In this document: positions 7,306-58,347 of the stretch, one piece after another
Position numbering within the stretch: position 1 is the first letter of the stretch
Layout: every line of letters begins with the position of its first letter
Assembly (NCBI GenBank): GCA_903821365.1
Contig: CAIJKY010000005.1
Span: forward strand, 1-64,000
Length of the DNA stretch: 64,000 bases
Direction of reading: 5' to 3'
Source: an uncultured bacterium
Lineage (GTDB): Bacteria; Patescibacteriota; Saccharimonadia; Saccharimonadales; Saccharimonadaceae
The notes under the pieces: model-generated
Database searches by the model: none
The model's input: the letters and a program-made list of their open reading frames with translations, nothing else
Told to the model about the DNA's origin: nothing
Made by a program: the position numbers and the translations under genes

Positions 7306-7337
7306 GGAGCGGCACCCCGTGGTGGGGGTGCCGCTCC
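7306..7337 (-). terminator. GC hairpin downstream of the 7355 gene
   Basis: A perfect 13-bp stem (GGAGCGGCACCCC) with a 6-nt loop begins 18 bases past the stop of the leftward GC-rich gene. It has no U-tract; it may stabilise the 3' end or act as a terminator. Confidence 0.6.
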
Positions 7338-7354
7338 AGTTGGTCAGCCGCTGG

Positions 7355-8011
7355 TCAGCGGTTGTCCATTGGGTTCCGCTTGCGCGGTTGCTCGGAGCGG
7401 TCGCTCGGCGGACGCACGGTCGTGCGCGTGGTGGCCGGGCTGGCCATCGGGTTCCGCTTGGCCGGCCGCGGGAAGGCCGCGGACGGCGTCTCGAGCGGCG
7501 CCTGGTCGATGACCGCGCCGACCCAGGTGCGGTCGGCCGACACGTACCTCGTGTCTTCGGCCTTGGGCGGCACCGGCGGGGTGTACGACGGCGCCCGGAA
7601 GGAGGTCTGCGGCTGCGTGCACTCGTTCGTGTGGCCAGCGTTGCGCCACTGCTGGTGCGCCTCGCTCGACCCCTCTCGGTTGCCGAACTCGCGCCCCTGC
7701 GCGTAGGCGTTTGCCGCGGCGTCGTTCAGCTGCCCGTTGTGCTCCGACATGATCTCTCTCCAGGCCAGCAAGCCCAGAACGTAGATGATGATGGCGCACA
7801 GCAGCGCGTACAGTCCCATGGCGAGCCATGGCCACATGAAGTTCACGAAGAGATCGGTGGCGGGAGTGTATCCCACGCCGATCAACGCCAACACTCCCGT
7901 GATGGCGAAGATGAACAGGGCTGCGTAGCCCCGTGCCTTCGTGAAGATGGGCTTCCTCTGCTTGCGCGGCGTGACAACCTTGGGGCTGTCAACGCTCGTC
8001 GATTCGGTCAT
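7355..8011 (-). CDS. Unrecognised two-TM membrane protein, GC-rich cassette 1
   Basis: I do not recognise this 218-residue protein. It has a basic N-terminus, two adjacent membrane segments (about 31-50 and 58-82, with a short loop), then a hydrophilic, Pro/Arg/Thr-rich cytoplasmic or external tail with the repeated string KRNPM. The start at 8011 is preceded by GGAGAGGAG. Upstream is the inverted repeat TCCGCAC/GTGCGGA and, near 8117-8122, a TATAAA box with a poor -35. Third positions are overwhelmingly G/C, unlike infB next door, which suggests transfer from a GC-rich genome. Antisense open frames exist only because of this GC bias. Confidence 0.65.
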   Translation of the reverse strand: MTESTSVDSPKVVTPRKQRKPIFTKARGYAALFIFAITGVLALIGVGYTPATDLFVNFMWPWLAMGLYALLCAIIIYVLGLLAWREIMSEHNGQLNDAAANAYAQGREFGNREGSSEAHQQWRNAGHTNECTQPQTSFRAPSYTPPVPPKAEDTRYVSADRTWVGAVIDQAPLETPSAAFPRPAKRNPMASPATTRTTVRPPSDRSEQPRKRNPMDNR

Positions 8012-8334
8012 GACACTCCTCTCCAAAAGCTCCGCACGGTGCGGACGCTCGGAAAAAGGTCGAAACCTGCCCATTCGGTGGACAGAATACAAGCCACAAT
8101 GAATTACATTGCAGCCTTTATACCGTCCACCAAATAAACAAAAAACACATTCATTACTCAAAACTGGTAAATTACATGCACCAAGCGAGCGATAACGCTC
8201 ATCTGTAGTGCAGTGGGTGATATACAGTAAAACTCTATATGTGACACTACATTACAAATGGTAAAAGGGGTGTACCGCCGGGGTACGAGTGCGTCACTGG
8301 TATGTGACACGTCTCGTACCCCTGGCGGGTCCCA
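8012..8334. other. Intergenic AT-rich region between two GC-rich cassettes
   Basis: This stretch has no gene. It carries the likely leader and promoter of the 7355 gene (TATAAA at 8117-8122 on the minus strand; palindrome near 8033-8047 just before its ribosome site) and the 3' hairpin of the 8335 gene at 8280-8322. The rest is AT-rich and I see nothing else in it. Confidence 0.5.
8280..8322 (-). terminator. GC hairpin downstream of the 8335 gene
   Basis: The outer 10-bp stem GGGGTACGAG/CTCGTACCCC encloses GTCAC/GTGAC, and the flanks CCGCC/GGCGG can extend it. It starts 12 bases after the stop. On the minus strand a weak TTTT follows. Confidence 0.6.
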
Positions 8335-9069
8335 TCAGTTGGTGGCGGTGCCACCGCTCGCGCTCTTGTTGGCCAGGCCGGCCTCCAACGAGGTGACCTG
8401 CACGTTCAGGTCGTCCAGCAGAGCGGTCGTCAGCACGAAGCCGTCGTCGATCTGCGCCGGGGAAGCCGACTTGGCGTCGACGACCTTGGTGGCGAGCAGC
8501 TCGCGGATCTTCTTCGCGGCCTTCTCGTTGCTATTGCGCTTTCCCTCGCCGGAGCGAATGAGGTTCTGGAGCTTCAGCAGCTCCCTGGGGTAGCCCGACT
8601 CGTCCAGCTCGACGTACGACCGGTTGGCCGGGCCGTCGAGGTTGCGGCGCACCAGCATCTGGAGCGCGACGATGTGCGGCGGGTAGTCCTGCTCTCCGTC
8701 GCCGGGGGCCGAGAACGCCACGAGCATCAGCGCCTCCTGGAGGGTGACGTCGTCGCGCAACATCTTGCCGTTCACCTCGTGCGTACGCGGGGTGGGGGTC
8801 GACGAGGACAGCGCCGCCGGGGCGTGGCCGTTGGTGCTAGCGCTGCTGCTGTTGGTGACGGCCAGTTCGGCCGCCCGCGGGTGGCAGGCGGCGATCAGGC
8901 GGTCGAGCGCGGCGGCGGTCTCGTCGGGGTCGGCGGTCTCGTCGTTGGTGCGCTCGAGGAGCTTCTGGACGGCGAGGGCTGCCTTGCGCTGGTGCGCGCG
9001 GAGAACCTCAGCCGCCTCGTCGGCGCCTTCGTTGGCGAGGGTGTCGATGGAGAACTTGGGGCTGGTCAT
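8335..9069 (-). CDS. Unrecognised soluble protein, GC-rich cassette 2
   Basis: I do not recognise this protein of about 244 residues. It is acidic and soluble, with no signal peptide or membrane segment, and looks mostly helical (for example HQRKAALAVQKLLER), with a Ser/Thr/Ala/Pro linker around residues 70-95. ATG at 9069 is chosen because AGAGGAG lies 7 nt upstream; longer frames run into the AT-rich leader. Codon use is strongly G/C-ending. A perfect 18-bp palindrome (9089-9106) and a GCGTTGGCG hairpin (9117-9147) sit in the leader, and a TTGACT/TACAAT promoter lies at 9365-9393. Confidence 0.65.
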   Translation of the reverse strand: MTSPKFSIDTLANEGADEAAEVLRAHQRKAALAVQKLLERTNDETADPDETAAALDRLIAACHPRAAELAVTNSSSASTNGHAPAALSSSTPTPRTHEVNGKMLRDDVTLQEALMLVAFSAPGDGEQDYPPHIVALQMLVRRNLDGPANRSYVELDESGYPRELLKLQNLIRSGEGKRNSNEKAAKKIRELLATKVVDAKSASPAQIDDGFVLTTALLDDLNVQVTSLEAGLANKSASGGTATN

Positions 9070-9088
9070 GTCGGACTCCTCTATATAA

Positions 9089-9106
9089 TGTCGTGCAAGC
9101 ACGACA
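9089..9106. promoter_or_regulatory. Perfect 18-bp palindrome upstream of cassette 2
   Basis: TGTCGTGC-AA-GCACGACA (with its complement symmetric) lies 20 bases before the start codon of the 8335 gene. It could be a protein-binding operator or an RNA hairpin beside the ribosome site. Confidence 0.5.
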
Positions 9107-9116
9107 GTGGGGTAGA

Positions 9117-9147
9117 GCGTTGGCGTCATGCGCATGGGCGCCAACGC
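9117..9147 (-). other. Leader hairpin of cassette 2
   Basis: A perfect 9-bp stem, GCGTTGGCG/CGCCAACGC, has a 13-nt loop in the 5' leader of the 8335 gene. Similar leader hairpins are found before other GC-rich cassettes in the window. Confidence 0.5.
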
Positions 9148-9364
9148 CCCAAAGATGTATATGACATCTCCAGGACAAAAGCGCACATGCGTTAACCAGT
9201 CCAAGTTCAAAAAACTGATGGGTACTACGCTGAGGATAACTCAAGCGCAGCCACAGTTCAACACCTATATGTGTGTATTAAACCATGGCTACGCTTTGTT
9301 GCTTCCTCCTCGCGTAGCATAAGATGCTAACGTGCACGGCTGTCTCTCAACAGCGAATGGACAT

Positions 9365-9393
9365 ATTGTAGTATAAAAACGTATAAAAGTCAA
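9365..9393 (-). promoter_or_regulatory. Leftward promoter, probably of cassette 2
   Basis: On the minus strand TTGACT (9388-9393), a 17-bp spacer and TACAAT (9365-9370) form a good sigma70-type promoter. The 13 bases 9382-9394 (minus ATTGACTTTTATA) recur exactly at 39529-39541. The leader would be about 290 nt; nothing coding is seen in it. Confidence 0.65.
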
Positions 9394-9430
9394 TACCTTT
9401 ATGCTTTGTAAGCTGTAAAATCATATATAC

Positions 9431-9459
9431 TTGACGTAAAGTAAACAATGTGCTAATGT
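9431..9459 (+). promoter_or_regulatory. Rightward promoter of the 9499 gene
   Basis: TTGACG (9431-9436), 17 bp and TAATGT (9454-9459) lie about 40 nt upstream of the start codon, divergent from the 9365-9393 promoter. No clear Shine-Dalgarno precedes the ATG at 9499. Confidence 0.65.
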
Positions 9460-9498
9460 CTATCTATACACAAAGTATAAAAACTAAAAAATATCTAT

Positions 9499-11493: not shown

Positions 11494-11559
11494 TTTTCGC
11501 GCCACAGTACGGCATCTGACAACTGTTATGGTAAAATAAACACATAAACGAGGGTTCCT

Positions 11560-11904
11560 ATGCAACCATTTCAACTAGACGATACCTTTTTACAAGAACT
11601 TGGACTTGGCACACTGCCTGAAGATCAGAAGCGTGAATTTTTGGCGCATACGCTCGAAACACTTGAAGTGCGCGTTGGTACGAAATTATCACAAGGCATG
11701 AGTGAGCAGCAACTAGCTGAGTTTGAACGCCTGACTCCAACTCCTGAAGATAGCACCGAAGACGCACAAAAGAAGCAACAACAAGCGCTCGAATGGCTCC
11801 AAACCAATCGACCAGATTATAAGGATGTTGTTGCCGGTGAGCTTGAATCACTAAAAACTGAGATTAAGAACAATAGTAATGCAATTTTGGAGCAGGCCGC
11901 GTAA
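11560..11904 (+). CDS. DUF5663 domain protein
   Basis: The 114-residue acidic, helical protein opens with LDDTFLQELGLGTLPEDQK and continues FLAHTLETLEVRVGTKL, the signature of the DUF5663 family, which I associate with Saccharibacteria and related Patescibacteria. Function unknown. GAGGGTTCCT precedes the ATG and a TAAAAT box lies about 27 nt upstream. Confidence 0.75.
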   Translation: MQPFQLDDTFLQELGLGTLPEDQKREFLAHTLETLEVRVGTKLSQGMSEQQLAEFERLTPTPEDSTEDAQKKQQQALEWLQTNRPDYKDVVAGELESLKTEIKNNSNAILEQAA

Positions 11905-11922
11905 AACCTTGCTGCAGATGCT

Positions 11923-12852
11923 TTATATGATCTGGACGCCTCGCAGAAATGCGGCGGCGTCCATTTCTTTTTTGCCGGCTGGTTTGAGGCGATTAACGAC
12001 AAGTTGACCGTCGATGGTGTGAACAATGAGTTGGCGTTTGTCGTTCGAAGCGGTGATGGTGCCCGGCTGCACTGTACTGGCATCAAACTGAGCAGTGGCT
12101 TCGGTAACGAGAATATCGCGATCAAAGGCGCGGATTTTGCTGCCAGGCCAGCCAAGGAAAGCTCGGACTTCGCGGGCGAGGACGCTGGCAGACTTTTCGG
12201 CGGGAAGTAATAAGCCGTCGGCTTTAGTAAGTTTGCGTGAATAGCTTGTGCCTGTGGTTGGTTGCGGTTGTGGCGTGATGCTGCCATCAAGGTAGCCGGG
12301 AATGGTACGCGCAAGGAGTGCGGCACTTAGCTGTATGAGGGCATCGGTCAGAACGGGGGTAGTGATGGTATCGTCGAGCGGATAAGTGGCTTGGGCGAGC
12401 AGTGGGCCTTGGTCCATTTTTTCAACTAAGAGCATTAAGCTGACGCCCGACTGAGCTTGGCCGGACAGTACGGCGAAAGTGATTGGGTCGGCGCCGCGCC
12501 ACTCGGGAAGAAGTGAGAAATGACTGTTCACGATGCCAAGCGGGAAGCTGTCGATGATGGCGCGACTGACGATGATGCCGTAGTCAATCAAGATGGCGAG
12601 GCGGCTGGCAAATTGCTGCCTAGCGATCAGCTGGTCAAGCTCATGGCGATCGGCGGCGAATAACAGCGGCAGGTTGTGTAAATGCGCGACGCTTATGACG
12701 GGCGCATCGGCTTTGTGGTGTTCGGGGTTGGGCTTGGTAACGACAGCTTCGATGGTGAACGACTCCAGGAGAAGCGTTAATGATGCCGCGGCAACGGGGC
12801 CGGTGCCAAAAAACACCACTGATGGCTTGTCGAGAGGTGCGACGGTGGTCAT
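11923..12852 (-). CDS. fmt: Methionyl-tRNA formyltransferase
   Basis: The 309-residue enzyme formylates Met-tRNAi with 10-formyl-THF. The N-terminal formyltransferase domain has VVFFGTGPVAA and the SLLPEWRGADPI stretch that holds the folate-binding region; catalytic Asn and His are in NSHFSLLP. The C-terminal OB-like domain follows from about residue 205. It starts 2 nt after the def stop, so def and fmt are coupled, the classical arrangement: formyl is added by one and removed by the other. Confidence 0.93.
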   Translation of the reverse strand: MTTVAPLDKPSVVFFGTGPVAAASLTLLLESFTIEAVVTKPNPEHHKADAPVISVAHLHNLPLLFAADRHELDQLIARQQFASRLAILIDYGIIVSRAIIDSFPLGIVNSHFSLLPEWRGADPITFAVLSGQAQSGVSLMLLVEKMDQGPLLAQATYPLDDTITTPVLTDALIQLSAALLARTIPGYLDGSITPQPQPTTGTSYSRKLTKADGLLLPAEKSASVLAREVRAFLGWPGSKIRAFDRDILVTEATAQFDASTVQPGTITASNDKRQLIVHTIDGQLVVNRLKPAGKKEMDAAAFLRGVQII

Positions 12853-12854
12853 TG

Positions 12855-13433: not shown

Positions 13434-13461
13434 AGATTGCAATTATACCAGATGTGGCGGC

Positions 13462-15393: not shown

Positions 15394-15474
15394 AACATGA
15401 TTGATTATAGGCCATGCCTGACGAGCAGTAGTATGTTTGGCATGATTGGCGGTACTGTTTATACTTATAAGCAT

Positions 15475-15960: not shown

Positions 15961-16177
15961 CTTTTGGTCTCTTCGAACCGTTAAGGCTCTGAAAAATGCC
16001 GCCGAAGCGGGTTGCGGACTAATCAAAATGAATGTAGAATAAATGGCAACGCCCCAGCGTGAACGATCGAGTGCCAAACACTTGCAAGTAACCTGCTGTG
16101 CGGCATCCTGACTAGTCCCATGTAGATTTAGACAGACGTGACATACTTTAAATACGTCAAGACGGGAGGCGACCATA

Positions 16178-19752: not shown

Positions 19753-19757
19753 CCCGC

Positions 19758-24043: not shown

Positions 24044-24412
24044 TTAATCTGGCGCACCGCTGTCTTCGTTCTTCTCGACCAGTCCGTCCCGGCCGGGACC
24101 GAGGCCGTAGATTGTGATGAGTGCGCCGAGAATCAAGCTGACAATCGCCGTCCCCGTCTCGCCAGTGGCGAAGATGATGAGGCCGACGAGCATCGTGGCG
24201 CTGCCGAGCAGCAGCGCTGCCTTACGGAGCATGCTGCTCTCTTCGGCGAGGCGCGGACCTGACTCCGGCTTGCTGTACCGCGCACCTTGCTTGGTAGTGC
24301 GTGGCAGCACTGCGCCTTTCAGCGGGTCGGGCGCGGCGGGGTCAAAATCCCACCGCCGTATCCCACAGTAGATGCATCTCTTGCCTTCGCACGGATGATC
24401 GTCTTCGGTCAT
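24044..24412 (-). CDS. Unrecognised small membrane protein with zinc-type cysteines, GC-rich cassette 3
   Basis: The 122-residue protein is not recognised. Its N-terminus has CEGKRCIYCG, a compact Cys cluster of zinc type; residues ~62-102 form two hydrophobic segments with a short turn; the tail is charged. GC-rich codon use contrasts with ftsZ beside it. The leader carries GTTGCAGC-4 nt-GCTGCGAC as a hairpin and GAGGGAG before the ATG. A CGCCAG/CTGGCG hairpin overlaps the stop codon (24033-24054). Confidence 0.6.
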   Translation of the reverse strand: MTEDDHPCEGKRCIYCGIRRWDFDPAAPDPLKGAVLPRTTKQGARYSKPESGPRLAEESSMLRKAALLLGSATMLVGLIIFATGETGTAIVSLILGALITIYGLGPGRDGLVEKNEDSGAPD

Positions 24413-24524: not shown

Positions 24525-24578
24525 TGTCTCACGCGAACACTAAGCTTTTGCATAAAAGCGCACTGTTCGCGCGAGACA
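24525..24578 (-). terminator. Hairpin between cassettes 3 and 4
   Basis: Arms of 15 bp (24525-24539 with 24564-24578, one mismatch) enclose GCTTTT/AAAAGC. It lies 60 bases past the stop of the 24641 gene and just upstream of the cassette 3 promoter, so it separates the two transcripts. Confidence 0.6.
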
Positions 24579-24640: not shown

Positions 24641-24829
24641 TCATCGGTTCTTGATGTACAACACCCCCAACCAAATGCAGATCACTCCGAACGGGTAGGC
24701 CAGGATGTGCGGCATTGGTCCGAGCTTGCTCGCGATGCCGCACAGCAGAGCGATTCCGAACAGGATGGCCAGGACACCTCTCCACAGAGGCGGGGTATTC
24801 AGGTCGGTCTGTGACGGGCGGTTGCTCAT
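24641..24829 (-). CDS. Unrecognised 62-residue membrane protein, GC-rich cassette 4
   Basis: The tiny protein has a short polar N-terminus and two membrane segments (about 17-36 and 40-58) ending in YIKNR, so both termini probably face the cytoplasm. AAAGGAG lies 9 nt before the ATG. The leader contains AGTGC-GAC-GCACT and an ACCGG hairpin, and a good promoter lies at 24966-24994. Not recognised; GC-rich like its neighbour cassette. Confidence 0.6.
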   Translation of the reverse strand: MSNRPSQTDLNTPPLWRGVLAILFGIALLCGIASKLGPMPHILAYPFGVICIWLGVLYIKNR

Positions 24830-33200: not shown

Positions 33201-33440
33201 TAGAAAAGCGTATTCAAGCAAGCAAACTTACTTGAATGAAGTGGTTATCAGCCATAAGCAGCGGGAAGAAACAATCAGTAATGATTGCAGTAGAACCCGA
33301 CGGAGCGTCCGTTATAACGTTAACTAAGTGCTAAAAGATTGTCGCTACACTAAAAGTGGAGCCAAGCATCTCTTTTGGAAGTTGGATGGTACCGTCCTGA
33401 ATGCAGGATTCCAACATATTCCATATACGAGGTGCTTTTT
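33201..33440 (+). promoter_or_regulatory. T-box riboswitch leader (probably tRNA-Ile)
   Basis: The antiterminator is textbook: helix A1 GTTGGA/TCCAAC (33381-33386 with 33410-33415), the 7-nt bulge TGGTACC (33387-33393) that pairs with the tRNA acceptor end, and helix A2 GTCCT/AGGAT with a GAATGC loop. The T after TGG fits the A73 discriminator of tRNA-Ile. GCATCTC (33366-33372) pairs with GAGGTGC (33429-33435) followed by TTTTT, the termination signal. Upstream are ATTCAAG/CTTGAAT, CAATCA/TGATTG and ACGGA/TCCGT stems. I could not fix the specifier codon; ATC occurs in the CAATCA arm. Confidence 0.82.
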
Positions 33441-33490: not shown

Positions 33491-34030
33491 ATGGGCATTG
33501 AGCAAACATTAGAGAGAACCTATTTAGTGCGCTACATACCAGCGCAAATTGAAGGCGCACAATCAGAGGTGATCGAAGACACTTACATTCCAGCCAATGC
33601 TCGCGAGGCCGGCTTACGCCTTCGGGAACGCAACGGCGTGTACGAACTGACAAAGAAATTTGTCCGCAAGCAAGGTGATCGCTCAATACTGAACGAATTC
33701 GTGCTTGACCTTTCGCAAGAAGAATACGAGGCCTTTAAAACGCTTGGAACACGTGTCACGCGCAAACGTCGTTTTTACTGCACGATTTACGGACATAAAA
33801 CAGAGGTTGATATTTTCTTAGGCGAACTTGATGGTTTAGCGCTCGTGGCATTTCCATTTACAACCGAAGCCGAGATGGCGGCATTTCAGCCACCCGAACT
33901 ATGTCTTGCTGAAGTAACAGGGCAGCGCGTCTCGAGCGGCGGCTATCTTGCTGGGAAGATCTATGCCGAAGTTCAGCCTGAGCTTGAACAATATCAGTAT
34001 GTGCCGCAATTTCTTGAGAAGGAGTATTAA
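33491..34030 (+). CDS. CYTH domain protein (triphosphatase/adenylate cyclase-like)
   Basis: The 179-residue protein starts IEQTLERTYLVR (a variant of the ExExK signature), followed by LRLRERNGVYELTKKF and late EVDIFLGELDGL, alternating charged strands of the CYTH tunnel fold. Family members hydrolyse inorganic triphosphate or thiamine triphosphate or make cAMP. Replacement of ExExK by ERTYLVR makes the exact activity uncertain. AAGGAG precedes the ATG. It lies with ileS in the T-box transcript. Confidence 0.78.
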   Translation: MGIEQTLERTYLVRYIPAQIEGAQSEVIEDTYIPANAREAGLRLRERNGVYELTKKFVRKQGDRSILNEFVLDLSQEEYEAFKTLGTRVTRKRRFYCTIYGHKTEVDIFLGELDGLALVAFPFTTEAEMAAFQPPELCLAEVTGQRVSSGGYLAGKIYAEVQPELEQYQYVPQFLEKEY

Positions 34031-36972: not shown

Positions 36973-37066
36973 CCGCTCGGCCTGCATTTACGAAGTGCAA
37001 GAAAAGTGGTATAGTCACTGACGACTTCACTGTGGAGTCGAAAGTGACGCTAGGGAAAGGACGTAT

Positions 37067-37453
37067 GTGACACGCCAAGTTTCATCGATTGAGGTGACGC
37101 CGGCCGCTATCTACATCAAGAATACGGCAGCCATGGCGAGGTTGCTTGGTGAGCTTCGTGCCAGTAACCTGAGTCATCCTGGCGATGCCAGCCCAATATT
37201 CATGATTGGAGGCACGCGATGCCGCGACTTCGAACTACTGTCCGTTCAATACGATTCGACGATCGATCGATTCGATCTGATCTTCGCCGAACCCTTTCAC
37301 GGCCGGGAAGTCGCTGTGGCGCGTGCGATTCTGGTGGTGGCATACCAGGGTCGACAGGTGGTGGCGAAAGCTTACGCGACCGCGCAGCAGACCGACACGA
37401 TGACGGCATTGCACGAGGCGCTCAGCAGCCACCTCGCGCCTAATCGCTCTTGA
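37067..37453 (+). CDS. Unrecognised soluble protein, GC-rich cassette 5
   Basis: The 128-residue protein, starting with GTG after AGGGAAAGGA, is not recognised. It appears as an alpha/beta fold: FMIGGTRCRDFELLSVQYDS and FDLIFAEPF strands followed by a helix ending HEALSSHLAP. No signal or membrane segment. The leader has the hairpin CGACT/AGTCG and TATAGT near 37010. Codon use is GC-rich relative to ileS. A hairpin follows at 37489. Confidence 0.6.
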   Translation: MTRQVSSIEVTPAAIYIKNTAAMARLLGELRASNLSHPGDASPIFMIGGTRCRDFELLSVQYDSTIDRFDLIFAEPFHGREVAVARAILVVAYQGRQVVAKAYATAQQTDTMTALHEALSSHLAPNRS

Positions 37454-37488: not shown

Positions 37489-37516
37489 GACCACGGATGC
37501 CCTCGCATTCGTGGTC
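37489..37516 (+). terminator. Hairpin downstream of cassette 5
   Basis: GACCACGGATG (37489-37499) pairs with CATTCGTGGTC (37506-37516) around a 6-nt loop, 35 bases after the stop; no U-run. Confidence 0.55.
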
Positions 37517-37622
37517 CAGCGTCACATGTGTCAATAACCGGCCAGTTATTCTGATGAGTCTTACGGCAAGACGAAACACATGATAAGCTAAAGGCAACAT
37601 AGTAACGTAGAAACGAAAAATA

Positions 37623-39138: not shown

Positions 39139-39231
39139 CTAGCTCACGCCAGCAGTCGGGTCGGGCGGGTACTCGGGCGGCGCCGTCTCGGCGCGGTCGC
39201 TCTCGTACCAGGGTCCCGGGTCGCCGTCCAT
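39139..39231 (-). CDS. Micro-ORF C of GC-rich cassette 6 (30 aa)
   Basis: This third small frame starts MDGDPGPWYESDRAE and is acidic and Pro-rich, with a TAG stop. Its ATG overlaps the stop of micro-ORF B as TGATG (coupled translation). Too short for homology; the coupled chain is the main support. Confidence 0.45.
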   Translation of the reverse strand: MDGDPGPWYESDRAETAPPEYPPDPTAGVS

Positions 39232-39338
39232 CAGTGGCACCGCGGCGTGTTGCCGTCGAGGTCACCGGTGGGCGGGTCGGGCTGCAGGCGTGGCGGCTTG
39301 CCCGGCCGCCTTGGCCCTGGCTGCAGGTGGTCGCTCAT
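39231..39338 (-). CDS. Micro-ORF B of GC-rich cassette 6 (35 aa)
   Basis: The 35-residue frame starts MSDHLQPGPRRPGKPPRLQP and is basic and Pro-rich. Its ATG overlaps the stop of micro-ORF A as ATGA, and its own stop overlaps the start of C. Function unknown. Confidence 0.45.
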   Translation of the reverse strand: MSDHLQPGPRRPGKPPRLQPDPPTGDLDGNTPRCH

Positions 39339-39448
39339 CGACGACCTCCGGGCAGTCGCCTGGCGTCGCCGACGTGCCGAACGCTGCCGCCACTGCCATC
39401 GTCGGTGAGGACGATTCCGTTCTCGTCGCCCGTGCAGTACTTGAACAT
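39335..39448 (-). CDS. Micro-ORF A of GC-rich cassette 6 (37 aa)
   Basis: The 37-residue frame starts MFKYCTGDENGIVLTDDGSG, with a weak GAGAGAAG ribosome site. It reads as a small beta hairpin with one Cys. It heads three frames joined by ATGA and TGATG overlaps. A TTGACT promoter lies about 65-90 nt upstream. A single frameshifted ancestral gene is an alternative. Confidence 0.45.
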   Translation of the reverse strand: MFKYCTGDENGIVLTDDGSGGSVRHVGDARRLPGGRR

Positions 39449-39509
39449 CGTTGCTTCTCTCGCTCAAGCGCCAGCATTTTTTGATGTTGACGCGTGTGTA
39501 GTGACCTTT

Positions 39510-50059: not shown

Positions 50060-50077
50060 GAACTGATCGGTGTTATT

Positions 50078-51151: not shown

Positions 51152-51180
51152 AAGCGCTGCACTCCCTCTCGAATTCGAAC

Positions 51181-51507: not shown

Positions 51508-51580
51508 AATTGATGGTATTGTATCTATTTTTTGGGGATTTGTCAAAACAGATGTGGCTAACACATGAAAATAGCCCCGC

Positions 51581-51623
51581 CGTCCGCGTACGCACGCCCA
51601 GTGAAGGGCGCCGTACGCGGACG
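51581..51623 (-). terminator. Hairpin ending the CitE/TerC unit
   Basis: A perfect 12-bp stem (CGTCCGCGTACG and complement, 51581-51592 with 51612-51623) lies 7 bases past the CitE-like stop. On the minus strand it is followed after ten bases by TTTTC, a weak U-run. Confidence 0.65.
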
Positions 51624-51629
51624 ACAGAG

Positions 51630-52628
51630 CTAGACTGCGGTTGTCACCTTCGCCAGCGCTGCCTCGTAGGAGAGCACTCGCGTGGCACCGAAGCGCCACG
51701 GGCGGTAGGTGACCCCGCAGGATCGTGCACGTTGCTGCATCACGAGGGCATCACCCTCGTGAGTGGTCAGTTCGTGCATTTGCCCATCACCGCCGAAGAC
51801 GGCAGGAGTGGGCGCGCCGCTTGCCAGGCCGAGCAGTCGACATGAGTTCACGAACGCTTGCCAGCCCGGGCGGTAGGCATGAACCGCCAACCGCACCTGC
51901 GACGGGTGGATGCAGGTCTTGCCGTAGAGCCCGTTGGCCATGTCGCGCACCAGCTCGTGCCGGAAGTAGCGGCCGTGACCTCGGCCGAACTGATCGACCA
52001 CTGGGGCGCTGAAGCTGAAACTGAAGTCCGGCCCACCAGCCCGGAATTCCCACAGCAGGTTGTAGATCATGTGGCCGACGACGGTGTCGTAGATCGAAAC
52101 CTCCGGGTTGCGGCGCAGATCGAAGGCCTTGAACATGTCGTTGCCACCGAGACGGCAACAGAGCACGCGACTCCGCATCTCGGCCAGAACTTCACGCAGC
52201 TCCATGCGGTACGCGTGATCGGCCATGCGGCCGTCCTCGAGCACTGGCATGATGCCGAATTCATGAGGATGCTGTTCGAGCACCTCCATGTACTTCGGCA
52301 GTCCCTTGACGCTCGCCTTGGGAATGACGAAACCGCGCACCAGGTCGATGCCCTCGAACGTGAGGAGCACTGCGAGCTGGTGGTAGCTGCGCGGCCTGAT
52401 GTAGACATTGACACCAGGGTGGCGAATGGCCTGTGCCATCTTGCGCAGCACCTGCTGGAGGTTGCCCAGCGCCAGTGCTTCGTCGCGCTCGGCCACTGAG
52501 TCTTCGAGGTCGAGCACGACGTTGGCGACGCCGGGCAAGTAGCCAGCCGCCGCCCTATCGGCCTGCCGCAGATTGGCGCAGGGTACGTAGAGGAACGGCA
52601 TGATCAGATCGTCTGAGGTGTCCAACAT
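51630..52628 (-). CDS. CitE-like (HpcH/HpaI family) aldolase of the Ter module, GC-rich cassette 7
   Basis: The protein of 332 residues has the HpcH/HpaI-CitE fold: [34 protein letters not shown] (the metal-binding LEDSV), [25 protein letters not shown] and KTCIHPSQV. Stand-alone members occur in Ter gene clusters as part of a predicted biosynthetic module (family knowledge, Anantharaman et al. Ter survey); citrate lyase itself is not expected, as alpha and gamma subunits are absent. ATG 52628 follows AAGGAG by 9 nt. GC-rich codons throughout. It lies downstream of terC on the same strand. Confidence 0.8.
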
Positions 52629-52667
52629 TGAGCATCGTCTCCTTGAATACATGTCGGGACAGGGAAT

Positions 52668-52706
52668 GCGCCCCGCCTCCACGTCCGAAGACGGGAGACG
52701 GGGCGC
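52668..52706 (-). other. Intercistronic hairpin between terC and the CitE-like gene
   Basis: GCGCCCCG (52668-52675) pairs with CGGGGCGC (52699-52706), with CCTCC/GGGAG inside; a second hairpin TGGCAC/GTGCCA (about 52708-52725) follows. It may separate transcripts or process the mRNA. Confidence 0.55.
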
Positions 52707-52740
52707 GTGGCACATCGTTGTGCCATGGATCAGGAGCGAC

Positions 52741-53622
52741 TCAGGCGAGGCCGAGTCGCTCGTTCTGCTTGGCGCGGCGGACGCTGTGTGCGAACGCTGC
52801 ACCGATGATGACGATGCCGATCAGTCCTGTTGCCACCTCGTTGAGCTCCAGGTGGAACAGCTTGGCGGCCATCACGGCCGCCAGAGCCAGGATCGCCCAG
52901 TGGGCGCCGTGGTCCAGGAAGGGCAGGCTCTTCAGCGCGCCCTTCCGCACGATCAGCACCGTCAGCGACCGCACGAACATCGCCCCGTTGCCGAGGCCCA
53001 CCACGATCGGCACCAGAAGCACCGTGATCGCGAAGGCACCGATGACACCGTCCAGTGAGAAGCTGGCATCGAGGAACTCCAGGTAGATGAACTGACCCAG
53101 GGCGGCGAGCCCCGAAAGCCCAGCCACCTTGTTCTTGATGCCGTCGGTTGCCTCGGGCTCCGTCAGGATTGTGCCCAGGATGCTCAGGCCGAGATGAACG
53201 GCGACGGCGACGATCGACGCCGCCAACACTTGAATCGCCTCGGACGACTCGACCGTCACCGCGAGGATCAGGCTGAGCACGATCATGATGAAGTACGGCA
53301 CGTGCTCTGAGCGACCGGCGGCGTGCAGTGGCCTCTCGAGCCACTTCAGCCAGTAGATCACCGGCATGTCGTTGCCGTCGTCATCCTGCTCGATCTCGAC
53401 GTTCATGAACCGATTCAGGCCGATCAGGCCCAAGAAGGTGAAGCCGAACGTGTAGATCAGCGGTCCGGCGGACGTCAGGATCGCGGCGTACTGGTTGGGG
53501 TCGTTCAGCGCCAGGCTGCCGGTCTGGATGTAGGTCAGGCCGGCCACGTAGGCCACGATGATCAACGGCAGCGCGAAACGCATACCGAAGACCGCGATGA
53601 ACACGCCGATGGTCAGAAACAA
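52741..53622 (-). CDS. terC: TerC/DUF475-family membrane protein, C-terminal part after an in-frame TAG
   Basis: The part of 292 residues has about eight membrane segments and the TerC/DUF475 pattern, with ESSEAIQVLAAS and the acidic FLDASFSLDGVIGAFA, in which membrane-buried Asp/Glu recur as expected for a metal-ion transport or membrane-complex protein. It could begin at TTG 53622, which has AGGAGAGA directly before it, or be read through from the upstream fragment. In frame it continues the 53629 fragment; only TAG-GAG-AGA separates the two. Confidence 0.7.
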   Translation of the reverse strand: MFLTIGVFIAVFGMRFALPLIIVAYVAGLTYIQTGSLALNDPNQYAAILTSAGPLIYTFGFTFLGLIGLNRFMNVEIEQDDDGNDMPVIYWLKWLERPLHAAGRSEHVPYFIMIVLSLILAVTVESSEAIQVLAASIVAVAVHLGLSILGTILTEPEATDGIKNKVAGLSGLAALGQFIYLEFLDASFSLDGVIGAFAITVLLVPIVVGLGNGAMFVRSLTVLIVRKGALKSLPFLDHGAHWAILALAAVMAAKLFHLELNEVATGLIGIVIIGAAFAHSVRRAKQNERLGLA

Positions 53623-53628
53623 TCTCTC

Positions 53629-53853
53629 CTAGGTCTTGTTCAGCTTGTCGACGATCAACGCATTGACCGTCGCGTTGTCGAAGCTGACGCTGATTTCCAG
53701 CAACGTCAGCAACAGGGCTGTGATGGCCACGTTGATGCCGCTGAGATAGCCCGTCAGTACCAGCGTTGCGGCTGAGATGTACATCGGCCAGCGGATGGCG
53801 TGCAGGATGTCTCCGACCGTGATCCGCGTTTGCGCTGTCGTTCCAGATGACAA
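53629..53853 (-). CDS. terC: TerC/DUF475-family protein, N-terminal part, ending in an in-frame TAG
   Basis: The 74-residue part, with TTG start at 53853 after GGAGG, holds one and a half membrane segments and the motif LEISVSFDNATVNALIV, with the conserved FDNA of TerC. It stops at TAG 53629-53631, where the family from memory has a Trp or similar residue before the next helix. A single base change from TGG would explain it. With 53622 the two halves give one TerC of normal length. Confidence 0.65.
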   Translation of the reverse strand: MSSGTTAQTRITVGDILHAIRWPMYISAATLVLTGYLSGINVAITALLLTLLEISVSFDNATVNALIVDKLNKT

Positions 53854-53911
53854 GGTATAACACCTCCAGGATGTGCGAGATCGGGGCGGGATGCCCGCGA
53901 TCAACGTGCAA

Positions 53912-53940
53912 ACTTTACAACGAAAGTATAAAAAAAGCAA
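53912..53940 (-). promoter_or_regulatory. Promoter of the terC unit
   Basis: On the minus strand TTGCTT (53935-53940), 17 bp and TAAAGT (53912-53917) lie in an AT-rich stretch; the GC leader has a GATCG-GGGCAT-CCC hairpin before the ribosome site. Confidence 0.5.
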
Positions 53941-54030
53941 TACTTTCAAGCATTGTAAGAATTATAATTTTATTGTATGGTTCTGCAGTACGAAGTTGGC
54001 ACTATCCCATGAGTGAGGAGTGGCGCGTGG

Positions 54031-54482
54031 ATGATCTGGAAGGGTGTATTCCGGATGGTTGCGGTGACGGCTGTGCTGGTGGTTGCTTCGAGGGGTGCTT
54101 CGGCGCTGCTATTGATGCAGCGGGAGACTTGGCCGAAGGCTGTTTCAGTGTTGTTCGGCTGCCAAGCTTGAACAAGCGGCGCTCACGCGGCAAGTCGTCA
54201 AAACGTCCGAAGCCCGGGCGTGTCTGGCTGCGGTTGAAGTTGCTGAACCAGACTGAAGGTGCCGAAGACGCGGTCAAGCAGCTGATGACGTACGGCCGCA
54301 CTGACCTGTGCGTGTTGAAGATCACCGACTACGCGAGTTGGCGTTGGCCGCTGAGCCGCTGGCGAACGCGAGTCGTACTAGCGGTGTGTTACGGTGGTGA
54401 CGCTGCGCTGTTGCGTGGTAGGGCGCTGGATATTCAGTGCAACCACCCGGCGGCGAAGCGGCCGAAGAACATCGCAATGTAG
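54031..54482 (+). CDS. Cysteine-array protein of unknown function, GC-rich cassette 8
   Basis: The protein of about 150 residues is not recognised. Near the start is the string GCIPDGCGDGCAGGCFEGCF with five cysteines spaced by five, four, four and four residues, set in glycines; then a hydrophobic-acidic stretch, a basic Arg/Lys patch (NKRRSRGKSSKRPKPGR) and a C-terminal domain with CVLKITDYASWRWPLSRW. ATG 54031 has GAGGAG 10 nt upstream; ATG 54009 is possible. A membrane-proximal, lipid-modified or metal-binding array are all conceivable. Confidence 0.6.
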
Positions 54483-54519
54483 GAGAGCGCGTGCATTCGC
54501 TTCAACAATACAACTTCAT

Positions 54520-54565
54520 AGCCCTACGGGCGCGGAAAATCCTAGTACCGCCGTGGGGCTTTTTC
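54520..54565 (+). terminator. Terminator of cassette 8
   Basis: AGCCC (54520-54524) with GGGCT (54556-54560), continuing through TACGG/CCGTG and CGG/CCG, is followed by TTTTT: an intrinsic terminator. Confidence 0.8.
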
Positions 54566-54605
54566 GTGCCTGAAAGAAGTTGATTTGAGAAAAAGAAAAA
54601 AAGTG

Positions 54606-54633
54606 TTGACAAAATTAAATAAAGTAGTAGAGT
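54606..54633 (+). promoter_or_regulatory. terD promoter
   Basis: TTGACA (54606-54611), 16 bp and TAGAGT (54628-54633) lie 57 nt before the GTG start. The spacer AAATTAAATAAAG is nearly the same as in the greA promoter at 63009. Confidence 0.65.
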
Positions 54634-54689
54634 TGGTCATTAAGTCCTGAGGCATTCCGCCAAAGGCACAACGAGAGGGTAATACAATC

Positions 54690-55274
54690 GTGTCCGACAT
54701 CCAGGTGTCCAGCAAGAAGCTTTCGCTCGACAAGCCGTCCGTCAGCCTGACCGAGGCCAACGCCGCGGCCGGCGCCAGTCCGGCCGCGCTCGACCAGGTC
54801 ACCCTGGCCGGTGGCTGGAAGGCCGGCACCATCGACGTGGACCTGTCCACCGCCACGGTCGACGCCAGCGGTCGCGTGCTCGAGCTGGTCTACTACGGCA
54901 AGAAGTCCGGTGCCAACGGTGCCATCACCCACGGAGGCGACAACCTCACGGGTGAGGGCGAGGGCGACGACGAGACCATCGGCATCCGCCTCTCCCGGCT
55001 GTCGCCGGAGGTCGCGGCCGTCATCGGTCTGATCAACGTCTACGCGGGCGAGAGCCGCCTGTCCAACGTGAAGGAGATCTTCTCCCGCGTGGTCAACGGT
55101 GACGGCACCGAGATCGCCCGCTACGAGCTCGGCCAGACCGCGGGCGACGCCAACGGTCTCGAGTTCTGCGAGTTCCGCCGCAACGGCACCGGCTGGGACT
55201 TCAACGTCCTGTCGTCGCCGTTCGCGGACGGGCTCCAGGCCTACGTGGCCGCGCGCAACGCCGCCGCCGGCTGA
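54690..55274 (+). CDS. terD: TerD family protein, GC-rich cassette 9
   Basis: The 194-residue protein is a TerD beta-sandwich: the Ca-binding-site region DVDLSTATVDASG and the signature THGGDNLTGEGEGDDETI, followed by SRLSPEVAAVIGLINVYAG and a C-terminal strand. TerD-type proteins bind calcium and occur in tellurite, phage and stress-response gene sets (family knowledge). GTG start after GAGAGGG. GC-rich codons; promoter and 3' hairpin of its own. It faces away from the leftward terC-CitE unit. Confidence 0.88.
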   Translation: MSDIQVSSKKLSLDKPSVSLTEANAAAGASPAALDQVTLAGGWKAGTIDVDLSTATVDASGRVLELVYYGKKSGANGAITHGGDNLTGEGEGDDETIGIRLSRLSPEVAAVIGLINVYAGESRLSNVKEIFSRVVNGDGTEIARYELGQTAGDANGLEFCEFRRNGTGWDFNVLSSPFADGLQAYVAARNAAAG

Positions 55275-55286
55275 CCGCCCCCTCCA

Positions 55287-55331
55287 GGGATACCCCGCAT
55301 CCAGGCTTCGGCCTCGGGTGCGGGGTATCCC
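55287..55331 (+). terminator. Hairpin downstream of terD
   Basis: A perfect 13-bp stem (GGGATACCCCGCA and complement) with inner AGGC-TTCG-GCCT is 12 bases past the stop; no U-tract. Confidence 0.6.
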
Positions 55332-55404
55332 GCAGCACAACTTATAGCAAATAGACACACGCAGCTTCACAGCTGTGTTTTTTATCTCATGCACAATATT
55401 TCAT

Positions 55405-55433
55405 TTGACAAAACCCCAAAAAAATACTAAAAT
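55405..55433 (+). promoter_or_regulatory. Promoter of cassette 10
   Basis: TTGACA (55405-55410), 17 bp and TAAAAT (55428-55433) precede a leader with two hairpins, TCGGCC-GGCCGA and GGGCAC-GGTGCCC. Confidence 0.7.
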
Positions 55434-55522
55434 CCGCAAGACTCGGCCTTCCTGGCCGATCATGCAGCAATGTTTACGTGGGCACAACCGGTGCCCGAAC
55501 GAAGCGAAGAAAGTGAGCAGTC

Positions 55523-55957
55523 ATGTCCGGAAGCAATGCTCGCGGCTCGGGTGATGATGTGGCGACGGGCCGCATCAGCGGGGCAGCCGCTGCGACACCG
55601 GCGCGCAGGCGCACCATGCCGACCTGGGTGCCGCTCGCCGCAATGGCGATCAACGGCCTGTCCATCCTGGATGCGTCGACCTTCATCGGTCGCTCGGTGC
55701 TCTACATCCTGCTGGGATTCAACATCGCCTACACCATTGCACTGATGCGTAACGGTCGCAGCTTCAGCCGCGTCGCCATCAGGCCGCTGTACCTGATCAC
55801 GTTGACGCTCGGCATGACGGCCGCGTTCGTCGCCGTCATCCTGTTCGGTATCAAGATCGCCTTTTGGATCCTGGCGATCATGGCGCTGCTCTTCGCGGTG
55901 ACGGTCGTCTACGGCGCCTACAAGCTCAAGCAACGTCTGGGCCGCCGCCGTCCCTAA
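55523..55957 (+). CDS. Unrecognised membrane protein, GC-rich cassette 10
   Basis: The 144-residue protein has a Gly/Ala/Ser N-terminus, three or four membrane segments (about 35-48, 58-78, 88-110, 114-134) and a basic tail ending LGRRRP. Not recognised. A weak GAAAGTGA-type site lies before the ATG. GC-rich. It sits after terD and may belong with the Ter set, although no motif shows this. Confidence 0.6.
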   Translation: MSGSNARGSGDDVATGRISGAAAATPARRRTMPTWVPLAAMAINGLSILDASTFIGRSVLYILLGFNIAYTIALMRNGRSFSRVAIRPLYLITLTLGMTAAFVAVILFGIKIAFWILAIMALLFAVTVVYGAYKLKQRLGRRRP

Positions 55958-55974
55958 TCGTTCAGCTGCATGAA

Positions 55975-56015
55975 GACAGCAGGGCAGTGCGCTGGTCGCG
56001 CGCCGCCCTGCTGTC
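55975..56015 (+). terminator. Hairpin downstream of cassette 10
   Basis: A perfect 11-bp stem (GACAGCAGGGC, 55975-55985 with 56005-56015) 17 bases past the stop, with no U-tract. Confidence 0.6.
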
Positions 56016-56163
56016 GCAACGCATTACATAAGATACTGCAAAACTTTACATAACCACCCAAAATCAGTATAATTATCATCGTATTCATATTTAATAACGC
56101 AACTCGTCGCACATAATCCTCCGTGAAAGCGGGCAGACGAGCGAGGCTAAAGGAGCAATCATC

Positions 56164-56916
56164 ATGGCAGTTACTGTCGATATCAAAGCACTATTAACTG
56201 CGGGCGCCCACTTCGGCCACAACACGAGCCGTTGGCACCCAAACATGGCGCCATACATTCACTCAAAGCGCCAGGGCATTCACATCATCGACCTTACAAA
56301 GACGGTTGATGCACTTGAAAAAGTATTGCCAATCATCACCGAAGTCGCTGGCAAGGGCAAGCAAATTCTTTTCGTTGGCACAAAGCGCCAAGCTAAAGAC
56401 ATTGTTCGTACGAGTGCCGAAAATGCTGGTCAGCCATACGTGACCGAGCGTTGGATGGGCGGTATGCTCACCAATGTCGCAACTGTTAATGCCCAGATCA
56501 AGCATCTTAAGCAGCTTGAGAGCCGTATGGACAGTGGCGATCTTGCAAAGCGTTACGCTAAGCTTGAAGTCCAGCGTTTCCAAGAAGAAATCGATGACCT
56601 TAACCTTAAATATAGCGGCATCAAAGAGCTAAACGGCCGTCCTGGCCTCGTCTTTGTTACTGATATTATCGAAGATAAGAACGCTGTCCGCGAAGCCAAA
56701 AAACTTGGCGTACCTGTTGTTGCTATCGTTGATACCAACGCCAATCCAAAAGATGTTGATTACGTTATTCCTGCCAACGACGACGCCATCAAAGGCTTAC
56801 AATTGATTATTGATTATGTTGTTGCTGCCATCGAAGAAGGCAAGAACGACAAAAAAGCTGCTGACGTAAAAGCCGCTGACATCCGCGCCGACAAAGCTGA
56901 AGCTGCAAAAAAGTAA
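56164..56916 (+). CDS. rpsB: 30S ribosomal protein uS2
   Basis: The 250-residue protein contains FGHNTSRWHPNMAPYIHSKR, the GTKRQAKDIV motif and NPKDVDYVIPANDDA near the end, all classic uS2 features; the tail is Lys/Ala-rich. TAAAGGAGC precedes the ATG by a standard spacing. tsf follows after 24 bases, the universal rpsB-tsf order. Confidence 0.96.
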   Translation: MAVTVDIKALLTAGAHFGHNTSRWHPNMAPYIHSKRQGIHIIDLTKTVDALEKVLPIITEVAGKGKQILFVGTKRQAKDIVRTSAENAGQPYVTERWMGGMLTNVATVNAQIKHLKQLESRMDSGDLAKRYAKLEVQRFQEEIDDLNLKYSGIKELNGRPGLVFVTDIIEDKNAVREAKKLGVPVVAIVDTNANPKDVDYVIPANDDAIKGLQLIIDYVVAAIEEGKNDKKAADVKAADIRADKAEAAKK

Positions 56917-56940
56917 TAGAACAATAGGAGTACCTCGATT

Positions 56941-57537
56941 ATGGCAATTTCCCTCGATGAAATTAAGAAACTCAAAGAACTAACCGGTGTCGGTCTTACT
57001 GATGCTAAAGCAGCGCTCACCGAAGCCGATGGTGACTTTGACAAAGCGCTTGAAGCAATGCGCAAAAAGGGCATGACCAAAGCTGAAAAGCGCGGCGAAC
57101 GTGAAGCTCGTGAAGGTCTTGTTGATAGCTACGTTCACAGTGGTCGCATCGGCGTTATTGTCGAAGTAAACTGCGAAACTGACTTCGTTGCTCGTACTGA
57201 AGACTTTAAAGGCTTGGTACACGACCTTGCACTGCACATTTCTGCAACCAACCCATTCTATATCAGCCTCGAAGATGTTCCAGCCGAAGAAAAAGCCCGC
57301 GCAACCGCCGAATTCAGCGAAAAAGCGATTGCCGAAGGCAAGCCTGAAGCCATGGTCGCCAAGATCGTTGAGGGCCAAGTTGCAAAATACTTTGCAGAAA
57401 AAACATTACTTGAGCAGCCATTCATTAAGAATCCTGATCAAACTGTTGATGCCTTGGTCAAAGAATACAATGCTAAGCTTGGCGAGAATATCGTTGTTCG
57501 TCAGTTTAAGCGTATCGAACTTGGCGTTAGCGAATAG
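56941..57537 (+). CDS. tsf: Elongation factor Ts
   Basis: The 198-residue protein has the UBA-like N-domain (LKELTGVGLTDAKAALTEAD), the KRGEREAREGLVDSYVH and VNCETDFVARTEDF motifs and one half of the dimerisation region, so it is the short form. It recharges EF-Tu with GTP. GAGTACCTCGATT precedes the ATG. Confidence 0.94.
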   Translation: MAISLDEIKKLKELTGVGLTDAKAALTEADGDFDKALEAMRKKGMTKAEKRGEREAREGLVDSYVHSGRIGVIVEVNCETDFVARTEDFKGLVHDLALHISATNPFYISLEDVPAEEKARATAEFSEKAIAEGKPEAMVAKIVEGQVAKYFAEKTLLEQPFIKNPDQTVDALVKEYNAKLGENIVVRQFKRIELGVSE

Positions 57538-57550
57538 AATAACGAAACGT

Positions 57551-57596
57551 TATATATTTAAAAGAAGCCTGATGGCTTCTTTTAAATATATAAGTT
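57551..57596. terminator. Terminator after rpsB-tsf
   Basis: A perfect 19-bp stem (57551-57569 with 57574-57592) with the tetraloop TGAT contains A/T runs on both arms, so it can act in both directions. Confidence 0.85.
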
Positions 57597-57632
57597 ATTT
57601 GGTCAGAATATCGCGAAGCGTATAATAAGGAT

Positions 57633-57830
57633 ATGTACAGAATGAAAAAAAATAATCCGACCGTTCATCAAAAAGCTGCTTTTTTCGCAGTTCTTACTGC
57701 TGTGTTATCTTTCATTAGTAACTTGGGCTGGCTGTTAACACTAAGCACCGGTAGATTACTATCCATTGTTTCAACAATCATCTTTGTTGCAGTGGCTGCA
57801 AGTGCATATACAATGCGGGGTAAACAATAA
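57633..57830 (+). CDS. Small two-TM membrane protein (65 aa)
   Basis: The 65-residue protein has two membrane segments (about 16-34 and 41-58) and a basic tail RGKQ. TATAAT ends 6 nt before the ATG (leaderless), which supports a real gene. Not recognised; AT-rich composition as in native genes. Confidence 0.65.
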   Translation: MYRMKKNNPTVHQKAAFFAVLTAVLSFISNLGWLLTLSTGRLLSIVSTIIFVAVAASAYTMRGKQ

Positions 57831-57844
57831 ATCTATGATTCTTG

Positions 57845-57880
57845 CCCCAGTTCAGCACGCACATGCGTACTGAACTGGGG
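57845..57880 (-). terminator. Hairpin downstream of cassette 11
   Basis: CCCCAGTTCAG (57845-57855) pairs with CTGAACTGGGG (57870-57880) around ACGC/GCGT, 18 bases past the stop of the secreted-protein gene. Confidence 0.6.
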
Positions 57881-57898
57881 CGCTGAACAGAAGACGGC

Positions 57899-58255
57899 CT
57901 AGCAGCTGTGGTATTCACCCCCTGTCACTGCGGTGACGTATGCCCGAGGAAGCCAGCTTCTGGCGTCGAACAAGGACAGTTGGCTGAGCCCGCAGATCGC
58001 GTTGATGTTGAGGCCGGCGATCCAAGAGCCACATGCCCAGCCGGGCACGAGGGCAGTGGCCGACGTGAGATTTGTCGTAGCTGCCGTTGCGCCAGTTGCC
58101 ACTCTTGTGGCAATACCACCTGCGACTGCTGCGCTTGCGACCAAGCAACCTTGCGGCCCGTCATACCAGCTGTCTGCCTGGGCAACTTCCGTTGTGCCCA
58201 TCATCGCCAGGCTGACAACAGCCAGCGTTGTCGCCATTCTTGCGGTACTTTTCAC
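57899..58255 (-). CDS. Small secreted Cys-containing protein, GC-rich cassette 11
   Basis: The 118-residue protein starts GTG (TGAGATGAGG upstream) and has a signal peptide: MKSTARMATTLAVVSLAMMG, with cleavage near AQA. The mature part of about 90 residues has four cysteines (GCLVAS, WACGSW, ICGLS, HSC at the end) and many Ala/Thr/Gly. It would be exported and could act at the cell-cell interface. Not recognised. Promoter at 58319-58347 and 3' hairpin at 57845 complete the cassette. Confidence 0.65.
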   Translation of the reverse strand: MKSTARMATTLAVVSLAMMGTTEVAQADSWYDGPQGCLVASAAVAGGIATRVATGATAATTNLTSATALVPGWACGSWIAGLNINAICGLSQLSLFDARSWLPRAYVTAVTGGEYHSC

Positions 58256-58318
58256 GCATCCTCATCTCAAATTGTGGACTGGTTCAACGCGCGCAGCTAG
58301 ACTTTGCTGCACTTTTGT

Positions 58319-58347
58319 AGTATAACTACTCCTTTAATTTAAATCAA
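58319..58347 (-). promoter_or_regulatory. Promoter of cassette 11
   Basis: On the minus strand TTGATT (58342-58347), exactly 17 bp and TATACT (58319-58324) lie about 60 nt before the GTG start; the leader has GCAGC/GCTGC. Confidence 0.7.

Follow-up and report, generated by a model that had tools for sequence, protein, structure and literature searches.

Hotspots of accessory genes lie at fixed positions between core genes, hold variable contents and are likely exchanged by homologous recombination in their flanks. Accessory genes are usually AT-richer than the core. Integron cassettes bring single small orphan genes with a 3′ hairpin and are exchanged in modular fashion, and hammerhead ribozymes of the type III fold, with a conserved core and in tandem gene-ribozyme arrays, have been documented in bacteria beside small non-conserved open reading frames (ORFs), often in prophages (PMC3088659, PMC6155905). 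Likenesses to all three are found in the DNA described here, the first 64 kb of contig 5 (CAIJKY010000005.1; hereafter the window) of the genome G000 (GCA_903821365.1) of an uncultured bacterium. The elements in question are short, mostly orphan, GC-rich genes that stand as self-contained units between core genes such as rpmE, rpsB and tsf, and one of those in the window is followed by a type III hammerhead.

The differences are equally clear. Unlike the contents of hotspots, most of the units stand alone as autonomous transcription units and share one GC-rich composition, and one unit type with one set of signals is found at many slots. Unlike integron cassettes, they have their own promoters and are dispersed rather than arrayed; no recurrent end sequence was found among them, and the 3′ hairpins compared look unrelated in sequence. 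G000 has two tyrosine recombinases (assigned at family level only). In contrast to the known bacterial and prophage hammerheads, the ribozymes here are chromosomal, dispersed and located 3′ of a promoter-gene-hairpin unit, with no phage genes seen.

The best explanation, to which a probability of roughly 0.6 is assigned, is a Saccharibacterial pool of exchangeable autonomous transcription units in conserved slots, whose contents are replaced or diverge fast. The genome is called a Saccharibacterium because a preliminary description of the window assigned it so and because the nearest named relatives of the TerC gene in one of the slots are Saccharibacteria.

Composition of the GC-rich genes

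G000 comprises 1,025,469 bases in 17 contigs with an overall GC of about 0.485, all of which was covered for gene and codon analysis. Genes were called with a simple home-made two-model caller, which found 846 genes and missed some units of intermediate G+C content at third codon positions (GC3), such as those at 37067 and 57899. One borderline gene (GC3 0.68) was left out of most counts, and the GC-rich set therefore numbers 62 genes, or 63 when it is included. E-values throughout are rough, as they come from a short calibration.

GC3 in G000 is bimodal, with 62 genes at 0.70–0.95, a main mode near 0.48 and almost none between. These 62 genes are dispersed over 13 of the 17 contigs. Measured against a native reference of 783 genes (mean 0.473, standard deviation 0.046), the clear members in the window stand 5.8–10 standard deviations above the mean. 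The GC3 outliers claimed in the preliminary description are therefore real, and the pattern is genome-wide. Most of the genes it had listed are clear outliers; those at 37067, 57899 and 54031 are weaker, the last being in fact the gene at 54009–54482. Its entry at 39139–39448 is indeed GC-rich, although it consists of three tiny coupled ORFs rather than a single gene.

The same distribution bears on whether foreign contigs were stitched in during assembly or binning. The 17-contig sequence of G000 may come from a metagenome assembly, yet the GC-rich genes are placed singly, inside contigs and between native genes, so that such an artefact is extremely improbable. An assembly chimera was rejected, since the same slots are filled in an independent two-contig genome of the genus (G001, below).

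Expression signals

Among genes with at least 120 bp upstream, a strong match to TTGACA-16/18-TATAAT precedes 42 % of the GC-rich genes, 15 % of native genes and 2 % of shuffled sequences. A −10 box positioned for a leaderless start is found at 2 % of GC-rich genes versus 36 % of native genes. Strong 3′ hairpins follow 43 % of GC-rich and 10 % of native genes and none of the shuffled controls (0 %), and their GC is 0.69 in the GC-rich class versus 0.39 in the native class. The frequencies against native and shuffled sequences thus uphold the earlier account of distinct promoters, 3′ hairpins and native leaderless starts and, more broadly, of an accessory set with one common composition and common expression signals, distinct from the native genes. 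The lack of a U-tract, proposed as a further mark, is no distinction, since in either class at least five T in ten positions come after 13 % of the strong hairpins. As a separate observation, about one-third of the native G000 genes with a free upstream region have a leaderless-type −10 box.

In the mean GC profile the promoter upstream appears as an AT-rich dip; GC then climbs in the leader, is high from about −50 to +75 around the gene and is back at background about 75 bases past the stop. Since the elevation covers leader, gene and hairpin while the promoter is AT-rich, the GC-rich unit is the transcript. A unit would accordingly run from an AT-rich sigma-70-type promoter through a leader with a ribosome site and a GC-rich coding sequence to a strong hairpin at the 3′ end, behind which a type III hammerhead is sometimes found. 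With start and stop signals of its own and none taken from its neighbours, each unit could be functional at once in any slot. Accessory genes of G001 have the same high GC3 and similar signals (strong promoters 38 %, leaderless starts 3 %, hairpins 55 %). As for the coordinated regulon suggested as an alternative in the preliminary description, uniform sigma-70-type promoters do not demonstrate co-regulation.

Slots shared with a congener

G001, a same-genus relative, was covered over 1.2 of its 1.44 Mb (83 %). Its GC is 0.586, about 10 points above that of G000, and its core GC3 is 0.755. Whereas 565 of 780 native G000 genes have a match in G001 at a median identity of 69 %, only 12 of the 63 GC-rich genes do, at 34 %. 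The places are nevertheless shared. In 22 slots of G000 a GC-rich gene is flanked by collinear conserved genes, and every one of these slots contains more than 500 bp in G001, compared with 87 of 347 G000 gaps without a called gene (p=4e-13). An accessory gene of high GC3 (>0.8) is present in 18 of these 22 slots, against 9 of 123 ordinary gaps of 50–400 bp (p=6e-13). The contents in G001 are mostly unrelated to those in G000; conserved flanks with variable contents in relatives are thus found, as in accessory-gene hotspots.

Where homologous pairs exist, the shift in GC3 between the two genomes is 0.280 for core genes and 0.273 for fast-evolving native genes but 0.036 for the GC-rich genes (p=6e-9). 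The whole accessory class is strongly GC-richer than the core, and this composition is kept in two congeners about 10 GC points apart; it is a property of the pool rather than of the genome in which the units reside. Four of the eight checkable GC-rich homologues lie in the same syntenic slot, although these slots account in total for 92 kb of the 1.2 Mb covered; therefore both turnover and persistence in the same place occur. The preliminary description had counted vertically inherited homologues at the same loci against an acquired set. Part of this is observed, as the slots and some families are common to the sister species at the same positions.

This persistence leads to a rival account, in which the loci are vertical and fast-evolving and exchange little, their high GC being kept either through selection acting on the transcript or through GC-biased gene conversion in slots prone to recombination. 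It would fit the same-slot homologues, which stay near GC3 0.7–0.9 while the core differs by 0.28, as well as the elevation in leader, gene and terminator but not promoter, and the long branch of the slot TerC (below). However, most slots hold genes without detectable relationship between the species, and a rise from 0.47 to 0.9 would need a very strong conversion bias. TerD is also patchy (5 of 295 class genomes), and other Saccharibacterial DUF475 genes have a GC3 of 0.52–0.57. Vertical descent is therefore an improbable explanation.

Under the pool explanation, slot contents would be swapped among related Saccharibacteria, most likely by natural transformation, with homologous recombination in the conserved genes on either side. 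Exchange through such flanks would explain why the slots stay fixed while their contents change, and why composition does not follow the resident genome. ComEC is present in G000. Transformation with homologous recombination has been shown in a cultivated Saccharibacterium, in which mutation is possible too, so that slots, units and ribozymes are open to direct laboratory testing (PMC10633639).

Hammerhead ribozymes

On contig 13 of G000, three tandem GC-rich genes at 6.1–8.4 kb have alike leaders and 3′ ends and diverged coding sequences, with a hammerhead in the 3′ ends. A motif scan returned eight hammerheads of type III from G000 and a single one from G001, selected by the conserved core CUGAUGA ... 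GAAA with an NUH cleavage triplet, which is present in all eight G000 sites. Apart from the window copy they lie at L015 5949–6027, 6598–6665, 7231–7300 and 7833–7890, L002 19795–19852, L049 16468–16526 and L010 4343–4400. A covariance model found three in G001, one in G017 and one in a GC-rich Ter cluster of G030. The family forms three helices open at stem III, with 97 % of cells paired, a percentage inflated because the sites were picked for pairing; 12 of 15 pairs show double changes, none of 500 shuffles does as well, and sliding controls are far lower, so that covariation supports the base pairing.

The window copy scores below the Rfam gathering threshold of 48.5 bits (Table 1), none of seven other loci reaches that threshold either, and with model R1, which was built partly from the window copy, it scores 66.9 bits. 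The minimum of single-sequence folding of the window copy lacks the full hammerhead. Cleavage is predicted between the GTC ending at 37532 and A 37533. Hammerheads are positioned behind GC-rich genes or within the contig 13 array, except that the C8 site comes instead after an ORF of GC3 0.58; the window copy follows the moderately GC-rich 37067 unit and its hairpin. Where present, the ribozyme would most likely cleave the RNA downstream of the 3′ hairpin, leaving a defined, protected mRNA end.

At least one hammerhead is found in 94 of 393 Saccharimonadia genomes, representing 61 of 153 genera, which adds a concrete, if predicted, RNA-processing step in roughly one in four of the genomes sampled from the class. 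Across 29 loci GC reaches 0.57 some 250 bases ahead of the ribozyme and drops at the ribozyme (p=3e-4); the link with GC-raised units is therefore general. A sample of the phylum contained 12 genomes with hammerheads outside the class. Genome G527, also outside the class, has six on contig 16 (13.6–30.3 kb), five of them within 3.3 kb, and this cluster is likely a tandem gene-ribozyme array. A wider possibility, put forward tentatively, is a dedicated Patescibacterial system of swappable single-gene units, each equipped with a promoter, leader and 3′ hairpin, joined in many genomes by a ribozyme. In such a system a GC-rich pool distinct from the core genome would circulate among fixed slots of related species, and ribozyme-defined ends would contribute to expression or even movement.

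In the contig 13 array, as in retrozymes, type III hammerheads stand at both ends of units of about 600 nt. Unlike retrozymes, the units here are protein-coding with bacterial promoters. No reverse transcriptase (PF00078) was found in G000, and a retrozyme-like cycle driven by that enzyme was rejected on this ground. Neither G000 nor G001 has type I hammerheads, and a permissive Rfam scan of the window returned no other self-cleaving ribozymes. No report joining hammerhead ribozymes and Saccharibacteria was found in the literature searched; the ribozyme itself is not new, and its spread and placement in Saccharibacteria appear to be unreported there.

In some relatives (L276, L278, L280, L283, L286, L288 and L292) the hammerhead is immediately preceded by a conserved stem of about 24 pairs that carries the motif CTGCTTGTCATATTCGC. 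The 3′ strand of this stem is the 5′ strand of ribozyme stem III, and the two folds are therefore mutually exclusive. As a lead only, after cleavage the stem would leave a long 3′-end hairpin in some relatives. The competing hairpin was seen in some relatives and not in G000.

Origin of the units

The preliminary description named an actinobacterial host as the obvious candidate donor, and a recent uptake of single genes from such a GC-rich host, not yet ameliorated, is the first alternative to be weighed. GC3 of 0.70–0.95 matches Actinobacteria, codon choice is near that of Nocardia and Rhodococcus, and ComEC would provide a route. P450, fatty acid desaturase, TetR and Ter genes look unusual for Patescibacteria, the rarity being a counted result for TerD (5 of 295 class genomes). 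In a DUF475 tree of 79 sequences from public genomes the TerC of G030 groups with Actinomycetota (85/73). However, no close donor was found for the families tested. The slot TerC has a best identity of 44 %, to a Saccharibacterium, and in the same tree it groups with Saccharibacteria (98/91), outside Actinomycetota; plasmid relatives reach 23–26 % (P450) and about 35 % (TerD). Orphan family A1 has no relative among 84,980 species, in a scan by short-peptide patterns that can miss distant relatives and that was made for this orphan family only; it was seen in 3 of 295 class genomes and is almost restricted to the genus. The congener moreover shares slots and some families. To our knowledge, AT-rich TTGACA/TATAAT promoters are not actinobacterial in style. 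A recent donor of this kind is accordingly unlikely for the families tested, with the reservation that the TerC placement is one gene on a long branch. The pool may have an older actinobacterial origin.

Remnants of phage or satellite cargo are a considerably weaker candidate. Hammerheads beside small non-conserved ORFs are known from prophages, as cited above, and TerD has relatives on viral contigs at 24–43 % identity. On the other side, ten unrecognised GC-rich proteins gave no PHROGs match, three window orphans had no match in phages or plasmids, and families A1 and A2 have no relative in IMG/VR. The units are also scattered singly, and no structural phage genes were seen beside them.

Several results weigh against the pool of exchangeable units favoured here. 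No empty site, direct repeat or recombination breakpoint showing exchange was found. G000 gaps of at least 400 bp that look empty are also mostly filled in G001, and therefore the slots are not unique to GC-rich units, although some of these gaps may hold uncalled units. The slot TerC sits on a very long branch (3.84) and may therefore be misplaced in the tree, and the choice of C- and G-ending codons is nearest to that of other Saccharibacterial Ter genes and next to that of Nocardia/Rhodococcus. Only eight hammerheads are present for about 65 units, and G001 is the sole congener compared. Generality beyond the genus draws on the rpsB region and the ribozyme loci.

Gene contents

Nine of the GC-rich proteins scanned passed the Pfam cut-off: two TerD, DUF475/TerC, a Ter C-C bond lyase, a fatty acid desaturase, TetR, DUF3182, P450 and NlpC/P60. 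The products had been described earlier as mostly small membrane or secreted proteins, and a mild enrichment does exist, transmembrane-like segments being predicted in 47 % of GC-rich versus 37 % of native proteins. The distinguishing feature of the products is rather that they are short and unrecognised. Composition offers a simple tag for variable Saccharibacterial genes, most without a known family, which may serve in interactions with the host or with competitors.

As in the Ter stress-response set, the TerD, TerC/DUF475 and C-C bond lyase families occur together, adjoining in the rpmE-rpsB slot. Unlike that set, the TerC gene contains a stop codon, the rest of the set was not seen beside it, and the genes form a GC-rich island in a lower-GC genome. 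The in-frame TAG replaces the tryptophan of the SPFWQK motif of relatives and may reflect a pseudogene, readthrough or a sequencing error. GC-rich Ter clusters (GC3 0.69–0.96) are found in two other genera with a native GC3 of about 0.45, beside rpsB in G014 (L155, rpsB side) and elsewhere in G030 (L174 7040–14763).

A second GC-rich TerD-like gene of G000 lies at L049 2792–3532, far from the first. The P450-like gene at L053 2431–3669 keeps the haem cysteine region and is the one compared above with plasmid P450s; it apparently lacks the ExxR motif, and its function is doubtful.

Table 1. Features of the GC-rich units in the window (positions in the 64,000-nt stretch; z, standard deviations above the native GC3 mean)
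Feature	Position	Strand	Remarks
3′ GC hairpin of 7355 unit	7306..7337	-	perfect 13-bp stem
GC-rich orphan gene, 219 codons, one predicted membrane region	7355..8011	-	GC3 0.90, z 9.4; only a sub-cutoff Holin-X match
GC-rich orphan gene, 245 codons	8335..9069	-	GC3 0.94, z 10.2; no Pfam or PHROGs match
Small membrane-type GC-rich orphan gene	24044..24412	-	GC3 0.74, z 5.8; no Pfam match
Long hairpin after 24641 gene	24525..24578	-	imperfect 25-bp stem
Small membrane-type GC-rich orphan gene	24641..24829	-	GC3 0.79, z 7.0; no Pfam match
Promoter-like TTTACG-17-TATAGT, 37067 unit	36987..37015	+	consensus match
Moderately GC-rich orphan gene	37067..37453	+	GC3 0.64, z 3.7
3′ hairpin of 37067 unit, just before ribozyme	37489..37516	+	
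Type III hammerhead ribozyme, 3′ of 37067 unit	37524..37584	+	Rfam Hammerhead_3 41.1 bits, E 2.9e-7; covarying family
Three tiny coupled ORFs, GC-rich unit	39139..39449	-	read from sequence; two of three GC3 ~0.9
rpmE-rpsB slot	51508..56163	.	G001: 12.1 kb of GC-rich genes without detectable G000 homologues; G014: GC-rich Ter cluster on rpsB side
CitE-like C-C bond lyase, Ter group	51630..52628	-	PF15617 E 8.6e-55; GC3 0.80, z 7.0
DUF475/TerC-like gene, in-frame TAG 53629-53631	52741..53853	-	PF04332 E 4.9e-72; TerC pair z 9.1 and 7.7
Cys/Gly-rich orphan gene	54009..54482	+	GC3 0.68, z 4.6; no Pfam match
Promoter-like TTGACA-16-TAGAGT, TerD unit	54606..54633	+	
TerD gene	54690..55274	+	PF02342 E 1.9e-30; GC3 0.94, z 10.2
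3′ hairpin of TerD unit	55287..55331	+	19-bp stem
Promoter-like TTGACA-17-TAAAAT, 55523 unit	55405..55433	+	
Membrane-type GC-rich orphan gene	55523..55957	+	GC3 0.84, z 8.0
3′ hairpin of 55523 unit	55975..56015	+	18-bp stem
3′ hairpin of 57899 unit	57844..57881	-	hairpin score 44
Moderately GC-rich gene, signal-peptide-like start	57899..58255	-	GC3 0.64, z 3.6

Outside the units, 23S and 5S RNA are located at the start of the window. A weak T-box-like match is present at 33245–33416, upstream of the gene at 33491 (33.9 bits versus a gathering threshold of 93).

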